DNA of 64,000 nucleotides from the NCBI GenBank assembly GCA_016871315.1, contig VFZE01000013.1:1-64000 (forward strand), written 5' to 3'. The notes under the pieces are model-generated. The model was not told where the DNA came from and did no database searches. It saw only the letters and a list, made by a program, of their open reading frames with translations. The stretch is from Acidimicrobiia bacterium (GTDB lineage Bacteria; Acidobacteriota; Terriglobia; Bryobacterales; Bryobacteraceae). The translations under genes and the position numbers were made by a program. Positions 14,318 through 21,869 of this stretch are shown here, piece after piece (position 1 is the first letter of the stretch; each line of letters opens with the position of its first letter).

Positions 14318-14391
14318 CGTGAGCGAGAGAGCCTCTAGCATATGTTAGAGTGGTTGCTTTCAGCCCGGTCAAGCCTGCGGCTTGCAATTCC

Positions 14392-15855
14392 ATGTCGGTT
14401 CCAATCTTTCTCCAAGGGAAACTGCTCGGCATTGAGGACTTCGTATTGGCGCCTGCGTGCGCGGACGAGGCGCGAGGCGAAGCGCTTCTTGCCGGCCGCT
14501 CGCATTGGGTGACGCTGCTTAGCGAGGTGTTGCCGCGGGCGCTACTGGCGGAACTGGGGCTGGCGCGGATTCTGCTCGGATCCAGTGGCGGCGGTAGTTT
14601 CCTGCTGGTGCTGCCTCCAGAGGCGGCATCGAGCGCGGATGAGTTTCTGTCGCGCGCCGCCGAGTCCATCCGGCAACTGAGCGGCGGGCATCTGCACCTG
14701 GTCTGGGCGTCGACGGAGAACCTCGGCGACTGGACGATCGTGCGCAAGCGGCTGCACGAGGAGATGACGCGGCGGCAAGGCAGGCTGAAGGAGAAGGATC
14801 GAGAGGCGTTATTCGCTCCGTTTGTGGCGCGGACAACGGAGCCTGAGGAGACAGAATACTTCTCCCATTACCTGGCGCAGAAACTGCGCGATGCGCAATC
14901 GGTGGGCTGGTCACCGGAAGAACCGGCGAAGGTCTTAATCGGGGAAGGCAAGCACAGCTGGGGGGTGGGCGTATCGCAGGATGCGATTCCGCTGGCGCGG
15001 CATACGGCCCTGGACGACAGCGGGGCGGAACCGGCAAGCTTGCGCACGCTGGCCTCGCGGGCTACGGGCAAGCCGCTGTGGGGAGTGCTGCGCGGCGATG
15101 TGGACGGCTTCGGCACGCGAATGCGGCGGCTCGGCTCGATTGAAGAGCACGTGCAGTTGTGCGTGCTGTTCAAGCAGTTCTTCGCCGGCGAACTGGAAGT
15201 GGTGTGCTCGATGGCGGAGTTCTGGCGCAAGGTGACGACCCTTTATTCCGGCGGCGATGATTTCGCGGTGTACGGCTCCTGGGACGCGCTGCTGCTGCTG
15301 GCGCGTGAGATTCAGCGCGTGTTTCACCGCTTCGCGGCTCAGGACTTGAAGGACTGGCCCGGACCGGAGGCCAAGACGATCACCATGTCGCTGGCGCTGG
15401 CGCCGCAGCTGGATTCACCATTCGCGTTCGTGTACGAGGAGGCGGGACGGAATCTGGAGGCGGCCAAGAGCACGAGCAAGGATTGCTTCCACCTGTTCGA
15501 CCGGACGATTGAATGGAAGAGTTTCCTTCAGGCGTCGGAAACCAAGGACACGATGGTGCGGATGGTGGAGGAGTTTGGGTGTCCGCCGCAGCTGTTGAGC
15601 GAGATGAGCGGACTTTACCGCGACAAGCCGCCGTCATTGGCGCAGGCGAAGGGACGATTTGACCGGCCGTGGCGCTATCACCGCCGGCTGAACCGAATGA
15701 TGGGACCGGAGACCGAACAGGGGCGCGGGAAAGAGTTCCAGCGCCTGCGCGCCGGCTTGATTGCCGACGTGATCGGCCGGAGCCCGATCCAAGTGAAACT
15801 GAGACCCGCGGGACGCGTCGCGGTGGAATGGGCGCGCCTGGAGATTGAATCATAG
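14392..15855 (+). CDS. cas10: Cas10/Csm1, HD-less type III-A effector subunit
   Basis: 487 residues from the ATG at 14392. Palm 1 carries 'WGVLRGDVDGFGTRMRRLGS' (Asp236, Asp238) and palm 2 carries the cyclase motif 'LYSGGDDFAVYGSW' with GGDD at residues 287-290. This suggests that target-activated synthesis of cyclic oligoadenylate is retained. Typical Cas10 proteins are 700-850 residues with an N-terminal HD DNase and a Cys4 zinc finger; here no HD motif and no CxxC pair is present. The C-terminal ~150 residues are helical ('SLAQAKGRFDRPWRYHRRL') like domain D4. It is first in the order cas10-csm2-csm3-csm4-csm5, with csm2 starting 10 bp later. No CARF-domain partner is seen in the window. 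Confidence 0.9.
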   Translation: MSVPIFLQGKLLGIEDFVLAPACADEARGEALLAGRSHWVTLLSEVLPRALLAELGLARILLGSSGGGSFLLVLPPEAASSADEFLSRAAESIRQLSGGHLHLVWASTENLGDWTIVRKRLHEEMTRRQGRLKEKDREALFAPFVARTTEPEETEYFSHYLAQKLRDAQSVGWSPEEPAKVLIGEGKHSWGVGVSQDAIPLARHTALDDSGAEPASLRTLASRATGKPLWGVLRGDVDGFGTRMRRLGSIEEHVQLCVLFKQFFAGELEVVCSMAEFWRKVTTLYSGGDDFAVYGSWDALLLLAREIQRVFHRFAAQDLKDWPGPEAKTITMSLALAPQLDSPFAFVYEEAGRNLEAAKSTSKDCFHLFDRTIEWKSFLQASETKDTMVRMVEEFGCPPQLLSEMSGLYRDKPPSLAQAKGRFDRPWRYHRRLNRMMGPETEQGRGKEFQRLRAGLIADVIGRSPIQVKLRPAGRVAVEWARLEIES

Positions 15856-15865
15856 AAGCGAACCA

Positions 15866-16561
15866 ATGTCAGAAGAAACCCCTCAAACCCAACCCGAGAT
15901 AGCAACCGGCGAGAACAGTGCTCCCGCGGCCGTGGAGCCGGCCGAGGCTCCCGCTACCGCGCCAGCCGGGCCAGCGCCAGCCGAAGTGGCGCCGGCCGAA
16001 GCGGCTCCAGCCGAAGCGGCGCCGGCAGCGCCTCCGCCAAAGCCGGAGCGCCCGCGTCCGGAACAGGCCAAGGGTCAGCAGAAGGAGCGCGAGAAGCCGC
16101 GCGAAAAGTCCGACCGCGGCGACAGGGGAGATCGTGGGGAGCGGGGACCGCGTGACCGGGGTGATCGAGGCGACCGCGGAGGGCGGGACCGGCGGGATCG
16201 AGGCGGGCGTCCTGATTCCTTCGCCGACATTGATATTGACCGGCTGATCGCCGACAGCTTGTATCTGGACAATCAGGCACACGCGGTGGTGACGCGGATG
16301 CGGGACATGGACTCGGGAACGCGCAGCCAGCTGCGGCGCTTTTATAACGCTGTGCGGCGAGCCTGCCGCGCTCCGGAAGCCGAGCGCCAGCACCAGTTCG
16401 TGATGCTGCGCGCGCGGCTGGCGTACACGATCGCGCGCCACTCGCTGCGCAGCCTGGACTCGCTCGAACGGCTGCTGTTGCAGGTGACGCGGAAGAACGA
16501 TCCGCGTGGCTACGACCGCTTCCGCGATCTATTTGAAGCGATCATTGCTTATAACGAGTAG
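15866..16561 (+). CDS. csm2: Csm2 small subunit with long disordered N-terminal extension
   Basis: 231 residues from the ATG at 15866. The last ~125 residues are a helical Csm2: 'IDRLIADSLYLDNQAHAVVT', 'SQLRRFYNAVRRACR', 'FVMLRARLAYTIARH', 'RDLFEAIIAYNE'. Csm2 forms the inner filament that contacts target RNA in the Csm complex. The first ~110 residues are unlike any Csm2 I know. There is an Ala/Pro/Glu-rich stretch with Pro-Ala-Glu-Ala repeats, then a Lys/Glu region, then a low-complexity Arg-Gly-Asp block ('DRGDRGDRGERGPRDRGDRG') resembling RGG-box RNA-binding tails. An ATG at 15866 is preferred over a start inside the cas10 end. Length is nearly double the family norm. Confidence 0.85.
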   Translation: MSEETPQTQPEIATGENSAPAAVEPAEAPATAPAGPAPAEVAPAEAAPAEAAPAAPPPKPERPRPEQAKGQQKEREKPREKSDRGDRGDRGERGPRDRGDRGDRGGRDRRDRGGRPDSFADIDIDRLIADSLYLDNQAHAVVTRMRDMDSGTRSQLRRFYNAVRRACRAPEAERQHQFVMLRARLAYTIARHSLRSLDSLERLLLQVTRKNDPRGYDRFRDLFEAIIAYNE

Positions 16562-16589
16562 GGCTTACAACGAATAGGAAACTGCATTC

Positions 16590-17426
16590 ATGAGCGCACA
16601 TACTTCGCAAACCGAACTGAAGCTGATCGGCAAACTCCTGCTGGAAGGCGAACTGCACTGCGAAACAGGGCTCCATATCGGCGCCGGCAAGGGATCGCTG
16701 GAAATCGGCGGGGCCGATAATCCGGTGGTGAAGGACGCCTTCGGGCGGCCCTACGTGCCGGGCTCGAGCCTGCGCGGCCGGCTGCGGTCGCTGCTGGAGC
16801 AGTCTACGGCGCTGGCGGTGCCATCGGAGCTGGTCTACCTGAGCAAGCGCAAGGGCCAGGAGGTCCGCATCCATCAGAGTGACCGTCCCGAAGACGAGAT
16901 TTGCCTGCTATTCGGGCGCAATTCAGGGCGCATGGAGCGGGTGAGCGGAGAGCCGATGGACGCGGTGACGGCTTCGCCGGCGCGGCTGACGGTCTATGAT
17001 GCGCCGCTGGATCTGGAATCGATCACCGTGCAGATGCGCGACAACATGGACGATGAGCTGACGGAGGTGAAGAGCGAGAACGCGGTGGACCGCATCACTT
17101 CGCAGGCCAACCCGCGGACGCTGGAACGGGTGCCAGCCGGGGCGCGGTTCCGGATCCGGATGATTGTCGACGTGCTGTGCGAGGAAGACAAGGCGCTGCT
17201 GGCGCGGCTGGCCGAATCGCTGCGGCTGCTCGAGGACGATTCCCTGGGCGGCGGCGGCTCGCGGGGCAGTGGCCGGGTGCGTTTCTCAGCGTTGAACGTA
17301 AAGTGGCGCGGGCGGCGCTTCTATGCCGAAGGCGCCGAGGAGAGCGAGCTGTTGTCGGGAGCCGGCACGGCGGAGTTCCAGAAGCTGGCGACGAGCCCGG
17401 ATCTGGGTTCGAAGCTGGACGGCTAA
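16590..17426 (+). CDS. csm3: Csm3, backbone RAMP and RNase subunit
   Basis: 278 residues with the Csm3 order: 'CETGLHIGAGKGSLEIGGAD', where Asp43 aligns with the catalytic Asp that cuts target RNA at 6-nt steps; 'PYVPGSSLRGRLRSLLE'; 'SENAVDRITSQANPRTLERV'; and the glycine-rich loop 'LGGGGSRGSGRVRF' near residue 225. The RNase site therefore looks intact. It is ~40 residues longer than the usual ~220-residue form because of a C-terminal tail. The start follows csm2 by 28 bp and the stop is 3 bp before csm4, so the operon is tight. Subtype A is supported by the Csm2 and Csm5 partners. Confidence 0.95.
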   Translation: MSAHTSQTELKLIGKLLLEGELHCETGLHIGAGKGSLEIGGADNPVVKDAFGRPYVPGSSLRGRLRSLLEQSTALAVPSELVYLSKRKGQEVRIHQSDRPEDEICLLFGRNSGRMERVSGEPMDAVTASPARLTVYDAPLDLESITVQMRDNMDDELTEVKSENAVDRITSQANPRTLERVPAGARFRIRMIVDVLCEEDKALLARLAESLRLLEDDSLGGGGSRGSGRVRFSALNVKWRGRRFYAEGAEESELLSGAGTAEFQKLATSPDLGSKLDG

Positions 17427-17429
17427 GCC

Positions 17430-18458
17430 ATGTCCGATTGCCTGTTCGTCAAGCTCCGCCCGACCGCGCCATGGCGTTTGGGTCCCTCCAACGGCGCGCG
17501 CGACCGGACGGATTCGATCTGCCACAGTGACACGCTCTATTCGGCGCTTTGTCACGCGATGAGCCGGTTCGACTGGCTGCAAGCATGGCTGGGGGCGACA
17601 GCAGAGGCGGAAAACGGATGCCAGGTCCGCCTCACTTCGATGTTCCCGTGGCAGGGAGACCTGACTTATGTACCGGGGCCGCGCAATATATGGCCGCCGG
17701 CGACAGCAAGGCTGCGCGCCGGGGGCGCCGACTTTGTCCCCTCGACTCTGATCGCCAGCCTGCTTCGCGGCGAGGGGCTGGAAGAAGACAAGTGGGAAGT
17801 GGACGGGTTGAGCCGCTGCCTGATCAAGGCGGGGCGCCGCGGCGCCTACGCCGGACCGTTCCGGCATGCGCTCCGCTCCAGCGCCGCGGTGGACCGTTTG
17901 GATGCGGGCGCGATCGGCGTGCACCAGACTGCCTGTATCGAGTTTTCGCAGAACGCAGGGTTGTGGTGCCTGGCCGAGTTTTCGACCGGCGAGGCGGGTG
18001 AGCAGTGGTCAGCGCGTCTCCAGTCCTGCTTCCGCCTGCTAGCCGATTCCGGCATTGGCGGGGAACGCTCGCGCGGCTGGGGACATTTCGAAATCGAAGA
18101 GATGCGTGCGGCCCGTTTGCCCGATCTGCTGCTTGGGCCTCCGGCGGCGCCCACCGAGGAGCCGCCGGTGGAGCAGGCCTACTGGATGTTGTCGTTGTTC
18201 AGCCCCGCATCGAGTGACCGCATTCAATGGGACAAGGGAACCTACTCGCTGATTGACCGTGGCGGACGACTGGAAAGCGCCGCCGGCTGGGGCGCACGCA
18301 AGAAGCGTCTGCGCATGGTGCGCGAGGGCTCAGTGCTGCTGGCCGAGGAGCGCCCGTCAGGGACCGCGCACAACGTCGCACCGGACGGCTTCCCGCATCC
18401 AGTGTTCCGCGCCGGGTTCGCCGTCGCCGTAGCGGTGCCATGGAGTCACCAGCCATGA
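17430..18458 (+). CDS. csm4: Csm4, Cas5-group RAMP (crRNA 5'-handle cap)
   Basis: 342 residues. The Cas5/Csm4 opening 'CLFVKLRPTAPWRLGPSNG' is followed by 'SICHSDTLYSALCHAMSRF', by 'SGIGGERSRGWGHFEIEEM' (glycine-rich loop, residues ~205-225) and by a second RAMP half ('YWMLSLFSPASSDRI'). In Csm complexes this subunit binds the crRNA 5' handle and docks Cas10. No catalytic residues are expected. It begins 3 bp after csm3 and its TGA overlaps the csm5 ATG. Length is normal for the family. Confidence 0.9.
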   Translation: MSDCLFVKLRPTAPWRLGPSNGARDRTDSICHSDTLYSALCHAMSRFDWLQAWLGATAEAENGCQVRLTSMFPWQGDLTYVPGPRNIWPPATARLRAGGADFVPSTLIASLLRGEGLEEDKWEVDGLSRCLIKAGRRGAYAGPFRHALRSSAAVDRLDAGAIGVHQTACIEFSQNAGLWCLAEFSTGEAGEQWSARLQSCFRLLADSGIGGERSRGWGHFEIEEMRAARLPDLLLGPPAAPTEEPPVEQAYWMLSLFSPASSDRIQWDKGTYSLIDRGGRLESAAGWGARKKRLRMVREGSVLLAEERPSGTAHNVAPDGFPHPVFRAGFAVAVAVPWSHQP

Positions 18459-19612
18459 ACTACCGCCTCCAGTGCCTGACGCCGACGCTGGTGGGAGACG
18501 GCTCCAGCCTCTCGCCGATCGACTACATGGTGTGGAAGAACCAGGTAAACGTTCTGGACCAGCGGCGCATCTTCCGGCTGCTGGCCAAGGGGCCGCGCCT
18601 GGATAACTACCTCATGCAGGTGAAGCGTGCCGACAAACTGGACTTCGCCAGCTGGGGCGGATTCGCGCAGAACTTCGCCGGACGCCGCATCCCGTTTGAG
18701 CATCCCAGTTATGCGGCCTATTGGGAGAGGATGCGCGCCGAGCATTGCCATATTCCGTTGTTTGCCTCATCCACCTCGGGACCGTATCTGCCTGGGAGCG
18801 CGCTGCGTGGAGCCCTGCGCACGGCGCTGGTGGCCGCACGGACGAGCCCGAAGGCGCTGGCAGCGCTGCAAAAATCGCTGGAAGGGGAGCGGGGGTCGCG
18901 GCGGCCGGCGGAAACACTGGAACGCCAGTTGCTGGGCCGCGCGACGCACGATCTGATGAAGAGCATCGCGATCTCGGATTCGGGCCCCATTGAAGAGTCC
19001 GCCTTCCGCATTTTTCTGCTGCGCACGGCGGTGCTGGTGGAGAAGAAGTCTGGAGGCGGGCGCTGTTATTCGCTCGGCTGGAAGCAGGCTCCGCGCGGCA
19101 GCGTGGAGGGCAGGCGAGTAGAGGATGCGACGCCAACGTTGGCGGAGATGGCCTATCCCGGCGCCATTTTTGAGGGGCGCTGGCAGCAACGGCCGTTCTT
19201 TGAGCGCAAGGAGATCAGCCAGAGCCTGCACGGGAAAGAGCCGCTCCAATGGCAGACGCTGTTTGCTGCGGCGAACGATTACGCCGAACGGATGCTGGAG
19301 GCGCACCGGCGCTTCCTCCAGGCTGCTGCTCTGCCGCTGGTTGACCGGACGCTGACCGAACTCACGCAGCGGCTTGCGGCCGCACGCGAGCGCGGAAATG
19401 CCTGCTTGCTCGCGCTGGGGTGGGGCGCAGGGCTGCTGTCAAAGATCACGGCCGATCCGCAGCACCAGGAGAGCCGCGATCTGCTTGGATCATTTCCGTT
19501 TTACAGCTCCGCGATCCGCTCCGGGATGCCGTTTCCCAAGACCCGGCGGATTGTATTCCTGGATAATCAACCCGCTGCGCTGCCAGGCTGGGTGTGGCTG
19601 GAAATCGGTTAG
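18455..19612 (+). CDS. csm5: Csm5, RAMP subunit at the crRNA 3' end
   Basis: 385 residues from the ATG at 18455, which overlaps the csm4 stop by four bases; an ATG at 18440 would add five residues. Motifs: 'CLTPTLVGDGSSLSPIDYMV' near the N-terminus, 'GPYLPGSALRGALRTALVAA' (the RAMP helix and loop) near residue 110, and a C-terminal 'LGWGAGLLSKI' glycine-rich region. Csm5 helps mature and bind the 3' end of crRNA. It is the last gene of the operon; the next gene starts 126 bp on. No cas6 follows, so crRNA processing must be supplied from elsewhere. Confidence 0.9.
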   Translation: MNYRLQCLTPTLVGDGSSLSPIDYMVWKNQVNVLDQRRIFRLLAKGPRLDNYLMQVKRADKLDFASWGGFAQNFAGRRIPFEHPSYAAYWERMRAEHCHIPLFASSTSGPYLPGSALRGALRTALVAARTSPKALAALQKSLEGERGSRRPAETLERQLLGRATHDLMKSIAISDSGPIEESAFRIFLLRTAVLVEKKSGGGRCYSLGWKQAPRGSVEGRRVEDATPTLAEMAYPGAIFEGRWQQRPFFERKEISQSLHGKEPLQWQTLFAAANDYAERMLEAHRRFLQAAALPLVDRTLTELTQRLAAARERGNACLLALGWGAGLLSKITADPQHQESRDLLGSFPFYSSAIRSGMPFPKTRRIVFLDNQPAALPGWVWLEIG

Positions 19613-19738: not shown

Positions 19739-20626
19739 ATGTACAATGCCTTCTTCGGGTTCCATACGAGCCCTTTTAACCTGAGTCCTGACCCGGCCTT
19801 TTTCTTCCGCAGCATGCAGCATGAGGAAGCACTAGCCAACCTCATCTATGGCGTTCAGAGCCGCAAGGGTTTCATTGTGCTGACCGGCGAGGTGGGCACA
19901 GGAAAGACCACGATGCTGGAGTGCCTGCGCGACTACCTGTACGCCCAGCGCATCGAGTTCGCCTTCGTCTTTAATTCCCGGATCACTCCGGCGGAATTCT
20001 TCGAAATGGTCGCTTATGATCTTGACCTTCGCGGCGGCAAGTCGAAGACGGAAGTCTTGTACGCCCTGAACGATTTGCTCCTGCATCAATCGAGTAACGG
20101 CAACACCAGCGTGCTGATCGTGGATGAAGCGCACAACCTGGAGTGGGATGTTTTGGAAGAAATCCGGATGCTGGGCAACTTCGAAAACCGGCATGGCAAG
20201 CTATTGCAGGTGATCCTGGCCGGCCAGCCGGAATTGGACCGCAAGTTGGACGCGCCGAACCTAAGGCAGTTGAAGCAGAGAATCGTATTACGCTGTCAGT
20301 TGAAACCATTTCAACAGGCAGACACAGTAGAATACATCGAAGCGCGAATGGCGGTTGCAAGGCTTGAGAACCAGCAGATTTTCTCCACGGAACTTCTTGC
20401 GGAAGTGCATCTTCGCTCGCAAGGTATCCCTCGTGTTATCAACGCGATATGTGATAATCTCCTACTCACCGCATTTGCGTTGGAGGCACCCTCGGCAACG
20501 ATGGAGATGCTGGAAGAAGTGACCGAGGACATGCGTCTGGAATGGCCGGGACGGCGTCTGAGGATTCGGTCCGGAGCGACGCCGGATCCAGTGCGAGAAT
20601 CACCCCACTACACACGCGGCGACTAG
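19739..20626 (+). CDS. ExeA/GspA-like AAA ATPase (secretion-ATPase family)
   Basis: 295 residues from the ATG at 19739, which gives the family opening 'MYNAFFGFHTSPFNLSPDPA'. The Walker A motif is 'GEVGTGKTT', the Walker B motif 'VLIVDEAHN', and the late block is 'LRSQGIPRVINAICDNLLLT'. It matches the ExeA-like/PEP-CTERM-locus ATPases (TIGR03015-type), which in other bacteria energise secretin assembly or act at polysaccharide and exosortase loci. Here there is no secretin, exosortase or polysaccharide-export gene adjacent. It follows the csm operon by 126 bp and precedes the repeat-peptide gene by 190 bp, so its real partner is unclear. No peptidoglycan-binding domain is visible. Confidence 0.85.
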   Translation: MYNAFFGFHTSPFNLSPDPAFFFRSMQHEEALANLIYGVQSRKGFIVLTGEVGTGKTTMLECLRDYLYAQRIEFAFVFNSRITPAEFFEMVAYDLDLRGGKSKTEVLYALNDLLLHQSSNGNTSVLIVDEAHNLEWDVLEEIRMLGNFENRHGKLLQVILAGQPELDRKLDAPNLRQLKQRIVLRCQLKPFQQADTVEYIEARMAVARLENQQIFSTELLAEVHLRSQGIPRVINAICDNLLLTAFALEAPSATMEMLEEVTEDMRLEWPGRRLRIRSGATPDPVRESPHYTRGD

Positions 20627-20721: not shown

Positions 20722-20816
20722 CACATCAAGTAGACTAAAGAAGCCAAGCAAGATATTTTAGGGTGTAACCCTGGGACAGTATACCGGGAGCACCCTGCAA
20801 CAAAGGTGTATTGCCG

Positions 20817-21083
20817 ATGCTTACTCGAATTCGACTCTCTGTGATTTGTGCTACACTTGGGCTTACCCTCGTCGGTGCCTTCGGGTTCACTTTTCTTCAC
20901 GAGGTGCCTGCTCTTGACACTGCTCACGGTATCGTGCCACCGCCGGATCCTTGGGAACTGGCCCATGGTATCGTTCCTCCGCCGGACCCCTGGGAACTGG
21001 CCCATGGTATCGTTCCTCCACCGGACCCCTGGGAACTGGCCCACGGTATTGTCCCGCCGCCCGATCCTTGGGAACTCGCGTAA
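20817..21083 (+). CDS. Exported-looking peptide of four identical 13-residue repeats
   Basis: 88 residues. The ATG at 20817 is preceded by AAAGGTG (20802-20808) at good spacing; a TTG at 20811 is the only alternative. Residues 1-35 start with Arg-rich 'MLTRIRLSVICATLGL' and a hydrophobic segment to about residue 26, an uncleaved anchor or signal peptide. Residues 36-87 are four exact copies of AHGIVPPPDPWEL, closed by one Ala. Ten of the 13 codons differ between copies, yet every difference is silent, which indicates selection on the peptide itself. No Cys, Ser or Thr lies in the repeats. The 7-TM gene follows 66 bp later. Family unknown; possibilities are a multi-copy peptide precursor, a secreted ligand or a proline-rich docking array. 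Confidence 0.8.
   Translation: MLTRIRLSVICATLGLTLVGAFGFTFLHEVPALDTAHGIVPPPDPWELAHGIVPPPDPWELAHGIVPPPDPWELAHGIVPPPDPWELA
20922..21077 (+). repeat. Four tandem 39-bp units encoding identical 13-mers
   Basis: The units are 20922-20960, 20961-20999, 21000-21038 and 21039-21077, directly adjacent with no spacer. Unit 2 and unit 3 differ at one base-bearing codon, units 1 and 2 at six codons, units 3 and 4 at nine codons, and units 1 and 4 at six, all synonymous. The units are therefore old duplicates rather than a recent slippage expansion. Confidence 0.95.
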
Positions 21084-21149
21084 GACCTTTTCACTGATTT
21101 GCACGGCTAGGTATTGCCTTTTTCTCATAGGGAAGGGGCGCCGCGGGCC

Positions 21150-21869
21150 GTGAACTTTTTATACTACTTCATCATCCCCATTGGCCTGATCCTGCATATT
21201 CTGATACTTCGCGGGATCTTAACGGCGACGGCCTACCGTATCTACCCGTTTCTGTTCGCCTACTGCGTGGTGGATTTCCTGTCCTCGGTGGTAGAGGCTT
21301 CGGCATTTCTTGGCTTGATCCGGTGGCAGACGGTATCGAGAGAGAGATTCGTCTATTTCTATTGGGCGAATGAATTCCTGCTTCAGTTGCTCATTTTCAC
21401 CGTGATGGTGTCGCTCATCCATAAAGCGCTTGAGCACCCGAAAGCGAGAAGGTTTCTGGTAGGATTCATCGTCGTTTTGGTATTGACGGCATCGGTCGCA
21501 TCTCTAGCGTATACGTATTCGGCCAAAAGCGGAGAGCGTGTTTGGATCACGGATCTGAGCGGTAAGCTGAGCTTCTTCTCGGCGATGCTCAACGTCATTT
21601 TGTGGACCGCGCTTATTCGGGGAAGCAGAAGGAATTCACGCCTTTTGGTGATCGCCGCCGGGCTAGGCGTGTTGACGACCGGCAAATCGATCGGACATCA
21701 TGTTCGCGGCCTGTCCGCGGCCGCTGTCCCCTATGCCAACCTGTTCATTGTGCTGAGCCATCTGGTTTGTCTGTTTGCCTGGTGGTGGGCCTTTTATCGA
21801 ATCCCTGATTCGAGCGGCTCCGCATCCGGGGCCAATCCGCGAGGCCAGCGCGCGGTAGCAGGCCATTGA
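21150..21869 (+). CDS. Seven-transmembrane protein of unknown family
   Basis: 239 residues from the GTG at 21150, which follows GGGAAGGGG (21130-21138). Seven hydrophobic segments are visible: around 'FLYYFIIPIGLILHILIL', 'YPFLFAYCVVDFL', 'FLLQLLIFTVMVSLI', 'FLVGFIVVLVLTASVASL', 'SFFSAMLNVILWTALI', 'LLVIAAGLGVLTTGKSIG' and 'FIVLSHLVCLFAWWWAFY'. The tail is short and basic. There is no kinase, GGDEF or other output domain. Such small orphan 7-TM proteins recur in acidobacterial genomes without assigned function. The 66-bp spacing from the repeat-peptide gene and the shared direction suggest one transcript, so it could be a transporter, receptor or processing partner of the peptide; that link is inference. 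Confidence 0.75.
   Translation: MNFLYYFIIPIGLILHILILRGILTATAYRIYPFLFAYCVVDFLSSVVEASAFLGLIRWQTVSRERFVYFYWANEFLLQLLIFTVMVSLIHKALEHPKARRFLVGFIVVLVLTASVASLAYTYSAKSGERVWITDLSGKLSFFSAMLNVILWTALIRGSRRNSRLLVIAAGLGVLTTGKSIGHHVRGLSAAAVPYANLFIVLSHLVCLFAWWWAFYRIPDSSGSASGANPRGQRAVAGH

Follow-up and report, generated by a model that had tools for sequence, protein, structure and literature searches.

Fungal KEX2-processed repeat proteins (KEPs), among them the alpha-factor precursors, are secreted precursors that carry repeated short units and dibasic sites (PMC6339444). BtsS, a bacterial seven-transmembrane (7TM) sensor of the LytS type, has seven helices with its N-terminus outside (PMC10653868). Here we describe a gene for an export-type repeat peptide and, directly downstream of it, a gene for a predicted stand-alone 7TM protein, both in a 64,000-nucleotide stretch of an acidobacterial contig (the window). 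How Acidobacteria, which abound in soil, communicate with one another is poorly understood. Pfam, NCBIfam, PADLOC and PHROGs offer no family model for either product; the one Pfam match of the peptide, to Drf_FH1, falls below the cut-off (23.5 bits versus 40) and was set aside as a low-complexity proline match. Our literature search found neither the PPDPW motif nor acidobacterial repeat peptides, and no description of the peptide/7TM pairing; subscription journals lay mostly outside that search, and an earlier description is possible.

The peptide gene occupies positions 20817–21083 of the forward strand, and its 88-amino-acid product reads MLTRIRLSVICATLGLTLVGAFGFTFLHEVPALDT, then four copies of AHGIVPPPDPWEL and a single Ala. 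The initial annotation had seen here an exported-looking peptide of four identical 13-residue repeats, and the open reading frame, the hydrophobic leader and the four perfect copies bear this out. The 35-residue leader (20817–20921) has a positive start followed by a hydrophobic stretch (LSVICATLGLTLVGAFGFTFL), which strongly indicates an export type, and VGA/FG is a plausible signal-peptidase site at which it would be cut; an in-frame TTG at 20811 is an alternative start that would lengthen the product by two residues. Four 39-nt forward-strand units fill 20922–21077 (20922–20960, 20961–20999, 21000–21038 and 21039–21077). The unit holds no Cys, Ser, Thr, Lys or Arg, and the array is the sole tandem direct repeat in positions 1–40000 of the window.

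Every difference between the four copies is a silent third-position change, and 10 of 13 codons vary. Nine codons distinguish units 3 and 4, and our recount of these figures gave the same result as the original count; units 2 and 3 are the youngest pair, since only one codon (one base) separates them. Among the four units there are at least 12 substitutions and no replacement. If the array were neutral, the probability that all 12 would be silent is 7e-8 to 4e-7, at an expected silent fraction of 0.25–0.29. Together with the family-wide pattern described below, this led us to reject neutral recent slippage.

Profile searches indicate that the window gene is one member of a large family spread over several families of its class in Acidobacteriota, and not an isolated oddity. 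A genome of the same genus (G001) carries an orthologous array of six copies of AHGILPAPDPWEL at the same place, adjoining the same ATPase gene. The window's own genome holds a second array on contig C36 (L069:7787-8272, four copies of FDAPNPPPDPWE), with neither ATPase nor 7TM gene nearby and with an upstream neighbour that resembles a sugar kinase. Searching 257 genomes of the order recovered more arrays within the window's own family, with units that include AHGPTFPPDPWDGKV, ISPLPPPDPWGDGL, HIAPPPDIWEL and AHGLTPPPKDYDGFE, and a scan of named genomes placed relatives in Bryobacterales, Bryobacteraceae, Candidatus Solibacter and Terriglobia, in Acidobacteriota. Units upstream of 7TM genes are often unrelated to PPDPW, as in SGPGPSVDGF, HGPDGDPGGDGNF, LALGPWPVPPPPPDDKKGGG, IGSAPAPMPPHATMAL and NTSSPVPVTPW. 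In another family (f11), the gene ahead of a 7TM relative often encodes a small single-copy exported peptide and in one case, at L277, five copies of IPMSPIPVGRVVSS.

In total, 84 arrays were recovered, with 2–9 scored copies, a unit period of 10–22 residues and 82 distinct units. Protein identity within an array has a mean of 0.957 and a median of 1.0, against ~0.32 between different arrays, and the pooled pS is 0.38 against a pN of 0.037 (a previous run, in which the core window was fixed, had given 0.29 and 0.02). The initial annotation had proposed a search for homologous tandem repeats and a comparison of silent with replacement change; related genomes do hold such homologues, with variable copy number and pS far above pN, and repeats that diverge freely in protein are not what we found. 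The PPxPW core (positions -5 to +5) is nearly invariant inside arrays, and 7–13% of unit pairs mismatch at spacer positions -6, +6 and +9, examples being HIAPPPDIWE[L/M/V]A and HGPSIPPDPWAGGNATTL[I/M]A. Copy number differs freely among close relatives, at one versus three in L205 and L196 and six versus four in G001 and the window. Between close relatives (the window and G001, L083 and L090, L202 and L203) all copies are altered together, with changes such as AHGIVPPPDPWEL versus AHGILPAPDPWEL, IGPLPPPSPWDDN versus IGPFPPPSPWDDN and SGPGPSVDGF versus SGPGPAADGF. Because whole arrays change in concert between species, both occasional homogenisation and strong later selection for identical cores are needed. 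The substitution patterns thus strongly indicate that unit identity is kept by selection on the protein sequence; the original proposal of purifying selection stands as selection for identity, but not as simple purification of one sequence.

Clustering of neighbouring genes brought out two that recur around the peptide genes, an upstream AAA_22 ATPase and, directly downstream, a multi-TM protein of ~240 residues. Starting from the peptides, the 7TM gene is next downstream in most intact loci. The 7TM profile alone, run against 399 genomes of the class, returned 78 positive genomes, two other families included. Of the 7TM loci found in this way, 55 have 400 nt or more of upstream sequence, and in 37 of them an exported-type tandem-repeat ORF lies directly upstream of the 7TM gene, compared with 1 of 457 other gene starts taken from the same loci as controls. 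Five further loci have sub-threshold two-copy arrays in that position (L178, L195, L200, L208 and L209) and three have one-copy peptide genes (L174, L205 and L228), so that 45 of the 55 are paired when these weak and single-copy versions are included and ~10 have no evident upstream peptide. A hydrophobic leader followed by tandem units, with leader class scored by hydropathy only, is present in the window and in 60 of the 83 arrays or loci scored upstream of 7TM genes. Peptides without a neighbouring 7TM gene occur at L069 (the paralogue in the window's genome), L070, L076, L086 and L098. The pairing of peptide and 7TM genes is recurrent, and these counts support it strongly; since no other gene recurs outside Bryobacteraceae, the two together form the minimal unit. 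The first reading of the locus had noted the lack of a RiPP maturase; the neighbour that proved informative is instead the 7TM protein encoded downstream, and the ATPase on the upstream side is secondary.

Distance between units also follows distance between 7TM proteins (r = 0.74 over 24 loci; partial correlation given the ATPase 0.62, p = 0.0005). The partial correlation is significant with csm5 (0.56) or csm3 (0.35) as the control, but it falls to 0.20 (p = 0.06) with csm4 in a 13-locus subset, and co-evolution of peptide and 7TM protein beyond shared ancestry is therefore not established. We dropped the partial Mantel test as proof of it.

The 7TM gene of the window (21150–21869, forward strand) encodes 239 amino acids from a GTG start, and an in-frame TTG at 21114 is a possible earlier start. 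Its product had no match in Pfam, NCBIfam, PADLOC or PHROGs; a homologue at L111 matches PF07698 (7TM-7TMR_HD) weakly (E 0.0018; 18.7 bits, where the cut-off is 29.4). AF2 models of the window protein (pLDDT 84.2, pTM 0.80) and of the L126 protein (pLDDT 87.1, pTM 0.82) each have seven helices, and loops 1, 3 and 5 and the C-terminus are rich in Lys and Arg over 95 sequences, which by the positive-inside rule strongly indicates an N-out/C-in topology. Structural neighbours of the models are almost all GPCRs and rhodopsins, with best VIA Z values of 14.0 (7xp6, rmsd 4.7, 218 residues) and 12.8 (7eb2) for the two models, values within reach of generic helical bundles. The second model also matches the fungal receptor Ste2 (7ad3; Z 12.1, rmsd 4.4, 215 residues), which ties with many other 7TM receptors. 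Foldseek gave best E values of 4e-3 and 2e-2 for the two models, with no match at E <= 0.001, and a profile search of all PDB sequences with the 7TM family found no match up to E 1. We accordingly describe the predicted arrangement as GPCR/rhodopsin-like and claim no homology. Conserved positions are Y71, W72, F142, W152, D at 162, G173, G178, R186 and W211, and no conserved catalytic-looking or protease-like His/Cys/Ser set appears over the 95 sequences. At ~240 residues the protein consists of seven helices and short tails with no fused cytoplasmic output domain, and outside Bryobacteraceae our neighbour survey found no signalling domain that is attached to it or regularly encoded beside it.

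Upstream of the peptide gene, positions 19739–20626 (forward strand) encode a putative accessory partner, a cytoplasmic AAA_22 ATPase of the ExeA or XrtA/PEP-CTERM-associated kind. It matches nearly the whole TIGR03015 model at 276.6 bits, below the curated cut-off of 324.5, and by this score is a relative of that family, not a member. Its occurrence is confined to some members of the window's family, Bryobacteraceae. Directly upstream of the ATPase gene, at 14350–19612 on the same strand, lies a type III-A-like csm operon (Csm2, Csm3, Csm4, Csm5 and a Cas10 just 501 amino acids long); cas1 was not found in the window's genome, and positions 1–40000 of the window contain no CRISPR-like repeat array, so this is possibly an array-free csm module at a fixed locus. 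Homologues of the csm genes sit directly upstream of the cassette in 20 loci, yet in many others the cassette occurs with no csm genes; we therefore treat csm as context and rejected an accessory role of the cassette in type III CRISPR.

The absence of a YcaO, lanthipeptide or radical-SAM-type maturase nearby, which the initial annotation had reported, held: no RiPP modifying enzyme occurs among the scanned neighbours in the window (RAMP/Csm4, AAA ATPase, 7TM and GFO/IDH/MocA proteins) or among the conserved neighbour clusters. As for the wider surroundings, ten loci (L070, L074, L077, L080, L085, L088, L092, L095, L106 and L107) carry a gene for an OmpA/Pal-like lipoprotein (GCATKKYV...) close to the cassette but on the other strand, and at L180, L183, L185 and L113 the cassette is downstream of a housekeeping ffh-rimM-trmD-rplS-rnhB-like cluster, with no csm.

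Between the peptide and 7TM genes of the window, positions 21102–21152 (forward strand) are predicted to fold into an RNA hairpin (z = -2.4) whose 3' arm holds the 7TM GTG start, with the start codon paired at P = 0.99. Across 72 loci, the 75 nt past the peptide stop are more stably folded than shuffled sequence (mean z -2.3, 37 loci below -2). Start-codon pairing probability averages 0.68 against 0.57 in controls (69 loci, p = 0.004); because this excess is modest, we do not claim a start-codon switch, and the presence of a hairpin is better supported. The hairpin may hold 7TM expression down compared with that of the peptide. At L187, L194, L197, L198, L199 and L206, a long near-perfect hairpin (CACCGCAAAAC...GTTTTGCGGTG; z ~-6) ends at the 7TM GTG start. 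A CCTAGAATTG motif ~12 nt ahead of the 7TM start, conserved in many of L077, L080, L115 and L123-L138, resembles a -10 box (TAGAAT) and may point to a separate or leaderless 7TM transcript.

Our best reading, to which we give a rough probability of 0.45, is that these loci encode an exported, probably cleaved, multi-copy peptide ligand and a co-encoded 7TM receptor. The leaders strongly indicate the first step, in which the hydrophobic leader would export a precursor with a single core sequence present in one to nine or more copies. A general periplasmic protease would then cut the variable hydrophobic/Ala spacers, for example ...EL-A/HGI..., freeing identical cores, and several units per chain would raise the peptide dose. 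Each freed core would bind the periplasmic face of the N-out 7TM protein, its putative receptor. Having to fit one pocket would stop the units within an array from diverging, and a change in the pair would bring a rewriting of the whole array, through unequal crossing-over or gene conversion, so that each lineage would have its own word. The hairpin ahead of the 7TM start would keep the receptor at a low level relative to the peptide; the ATPase encoded upstream in many Bryobacteraceae may link the receptor to a response of the cell. By analogy with alpha-factor and Ste2, and more tentatively, Acidobacteria may use species-specific multi-copy peptide pheromones, made as tandem precursors and read by adjacent stand-alone receptors of GPCR topology, with one peptide word per lineage.

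The initial annotation had offered a polyprotein-like peptide precursor, which is still the leading kind of explanation, and a proline-rich docking array. For the latter, the repeat protein would stay uncut, as an extended proline-rich periplasmic or surface chain that docks and clusters several 7TM copies or a wall component for scaffolding or envelope sensing. Its Pro/Gly-rich units of regular length, in up to nine scored copies with a 7TM gene next door, suit such a chain, as does the lack of a dedicated protease gene among the conserved neighbours. Yet the single-copy members at L174, L205 and L228 suggest that the protein can do without many copies per chain, single-copy exported peptides also precede 7TM relatives in the other family, and copy number shifts freely in close relatives; we consider the uncut chain unlikely.

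The fast, lineage-specific change of the peptide beside a moderately conserved membrane partner would also fit toxin–immunity turnover, with the units released as a bacteriocin-like antagonistic peptide and the 7TM protein as its cognate immunity protein, and small multi-TM immunity proteins are known. The units themselves argue against this, being short, proline-rich and often acidic, neither amphipathic nor cationic. Neither a dedicated ABC exporter among the conserved neighbours nor a double-glycine leader was seen, no relatives were found on plasmids or viral contigs, and some peptide genes are orphans with no nearby 7TM gene (L069, L076 and L098), although a distant 7TM protein could protect. 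This role is improbable.

Such orphans weigh equally on a third idea, that the 7TM protein is an exporter, processing or assembly factor of a peptide that acts elsewhere when mature. The fixed order, precursor then membrane protein, is that of many precursor/processing pairs, but the precursor has its own export leader and the conserved 7TM residues (W, G, L, F, Y, D, R) include no protease-like set, making this quite improbable. Finally, an ordinary recent tandem duplication without function deserves almost no credit: units 2 and 3 are one base apart and several homologous arrays, located at contig ends, are nearly identical in DNA, but divergence in the window is silent only (P ~1e-7), the 84 arrays follow the same pattern, and gene context is conserved far above control.

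If the ligand–receptor reading is true, the 80 or more arrays would be a ready-made catalogue of peptides matched to membrane partners, with natural variants for the study of specificity. They also pose an evolutionary question, in that units stay identical in protein despite silent-site drift and then all change together. Compared with multicore RiPP precursors, the peptide likewise has several core copies behind a leader, but that leader is a Sec-type hydrophobic one, the core lacks Cys, Ser and Thr, and conserved neighbours include no modifying enzyme family. The upstream ATPase matches almost the whole model of the XrtA/PEP-CTERM-associated ATPase (TIGR03015), unlike which it scores below the cut-off and is partnered with peptide and 7TM genes. 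The 7TM protein shares with BtsS seven predicted helices and an N-out orientation; unlike 7TMR-DISM, 7TMR-HD and LytS-type receptors such as BtsS, it lacks a fused output domain of the kinase, HD or cyclase type and comes with a co-encoded repeat peptide.

As in alpha-factor and other KEP precursors, several identical or near-identical short units follow an export leader, and the unit changes between species. The known partner of alpha-factor is the 7TM receptor Ste2, and the repeat peptide here is co-encoded with a predicted 7TM protein. Unlike KEPs, the system is bacterial, the window unit has no KEX2-type dibasic sites, and the genes for the putative ligand and the 7TM protein are adjacent; unlike Ste2 and other GPCRs, the 7TM protein resembles no solved structure in sequence. 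We know of no GPCR-coupled heterotrimeric G proteins in bacteria. The comparison suggests an undescribed bacterial peptide-and-receptor-like system, one that resembles alpha-factor and Ste2 in logic, not in ancestry.
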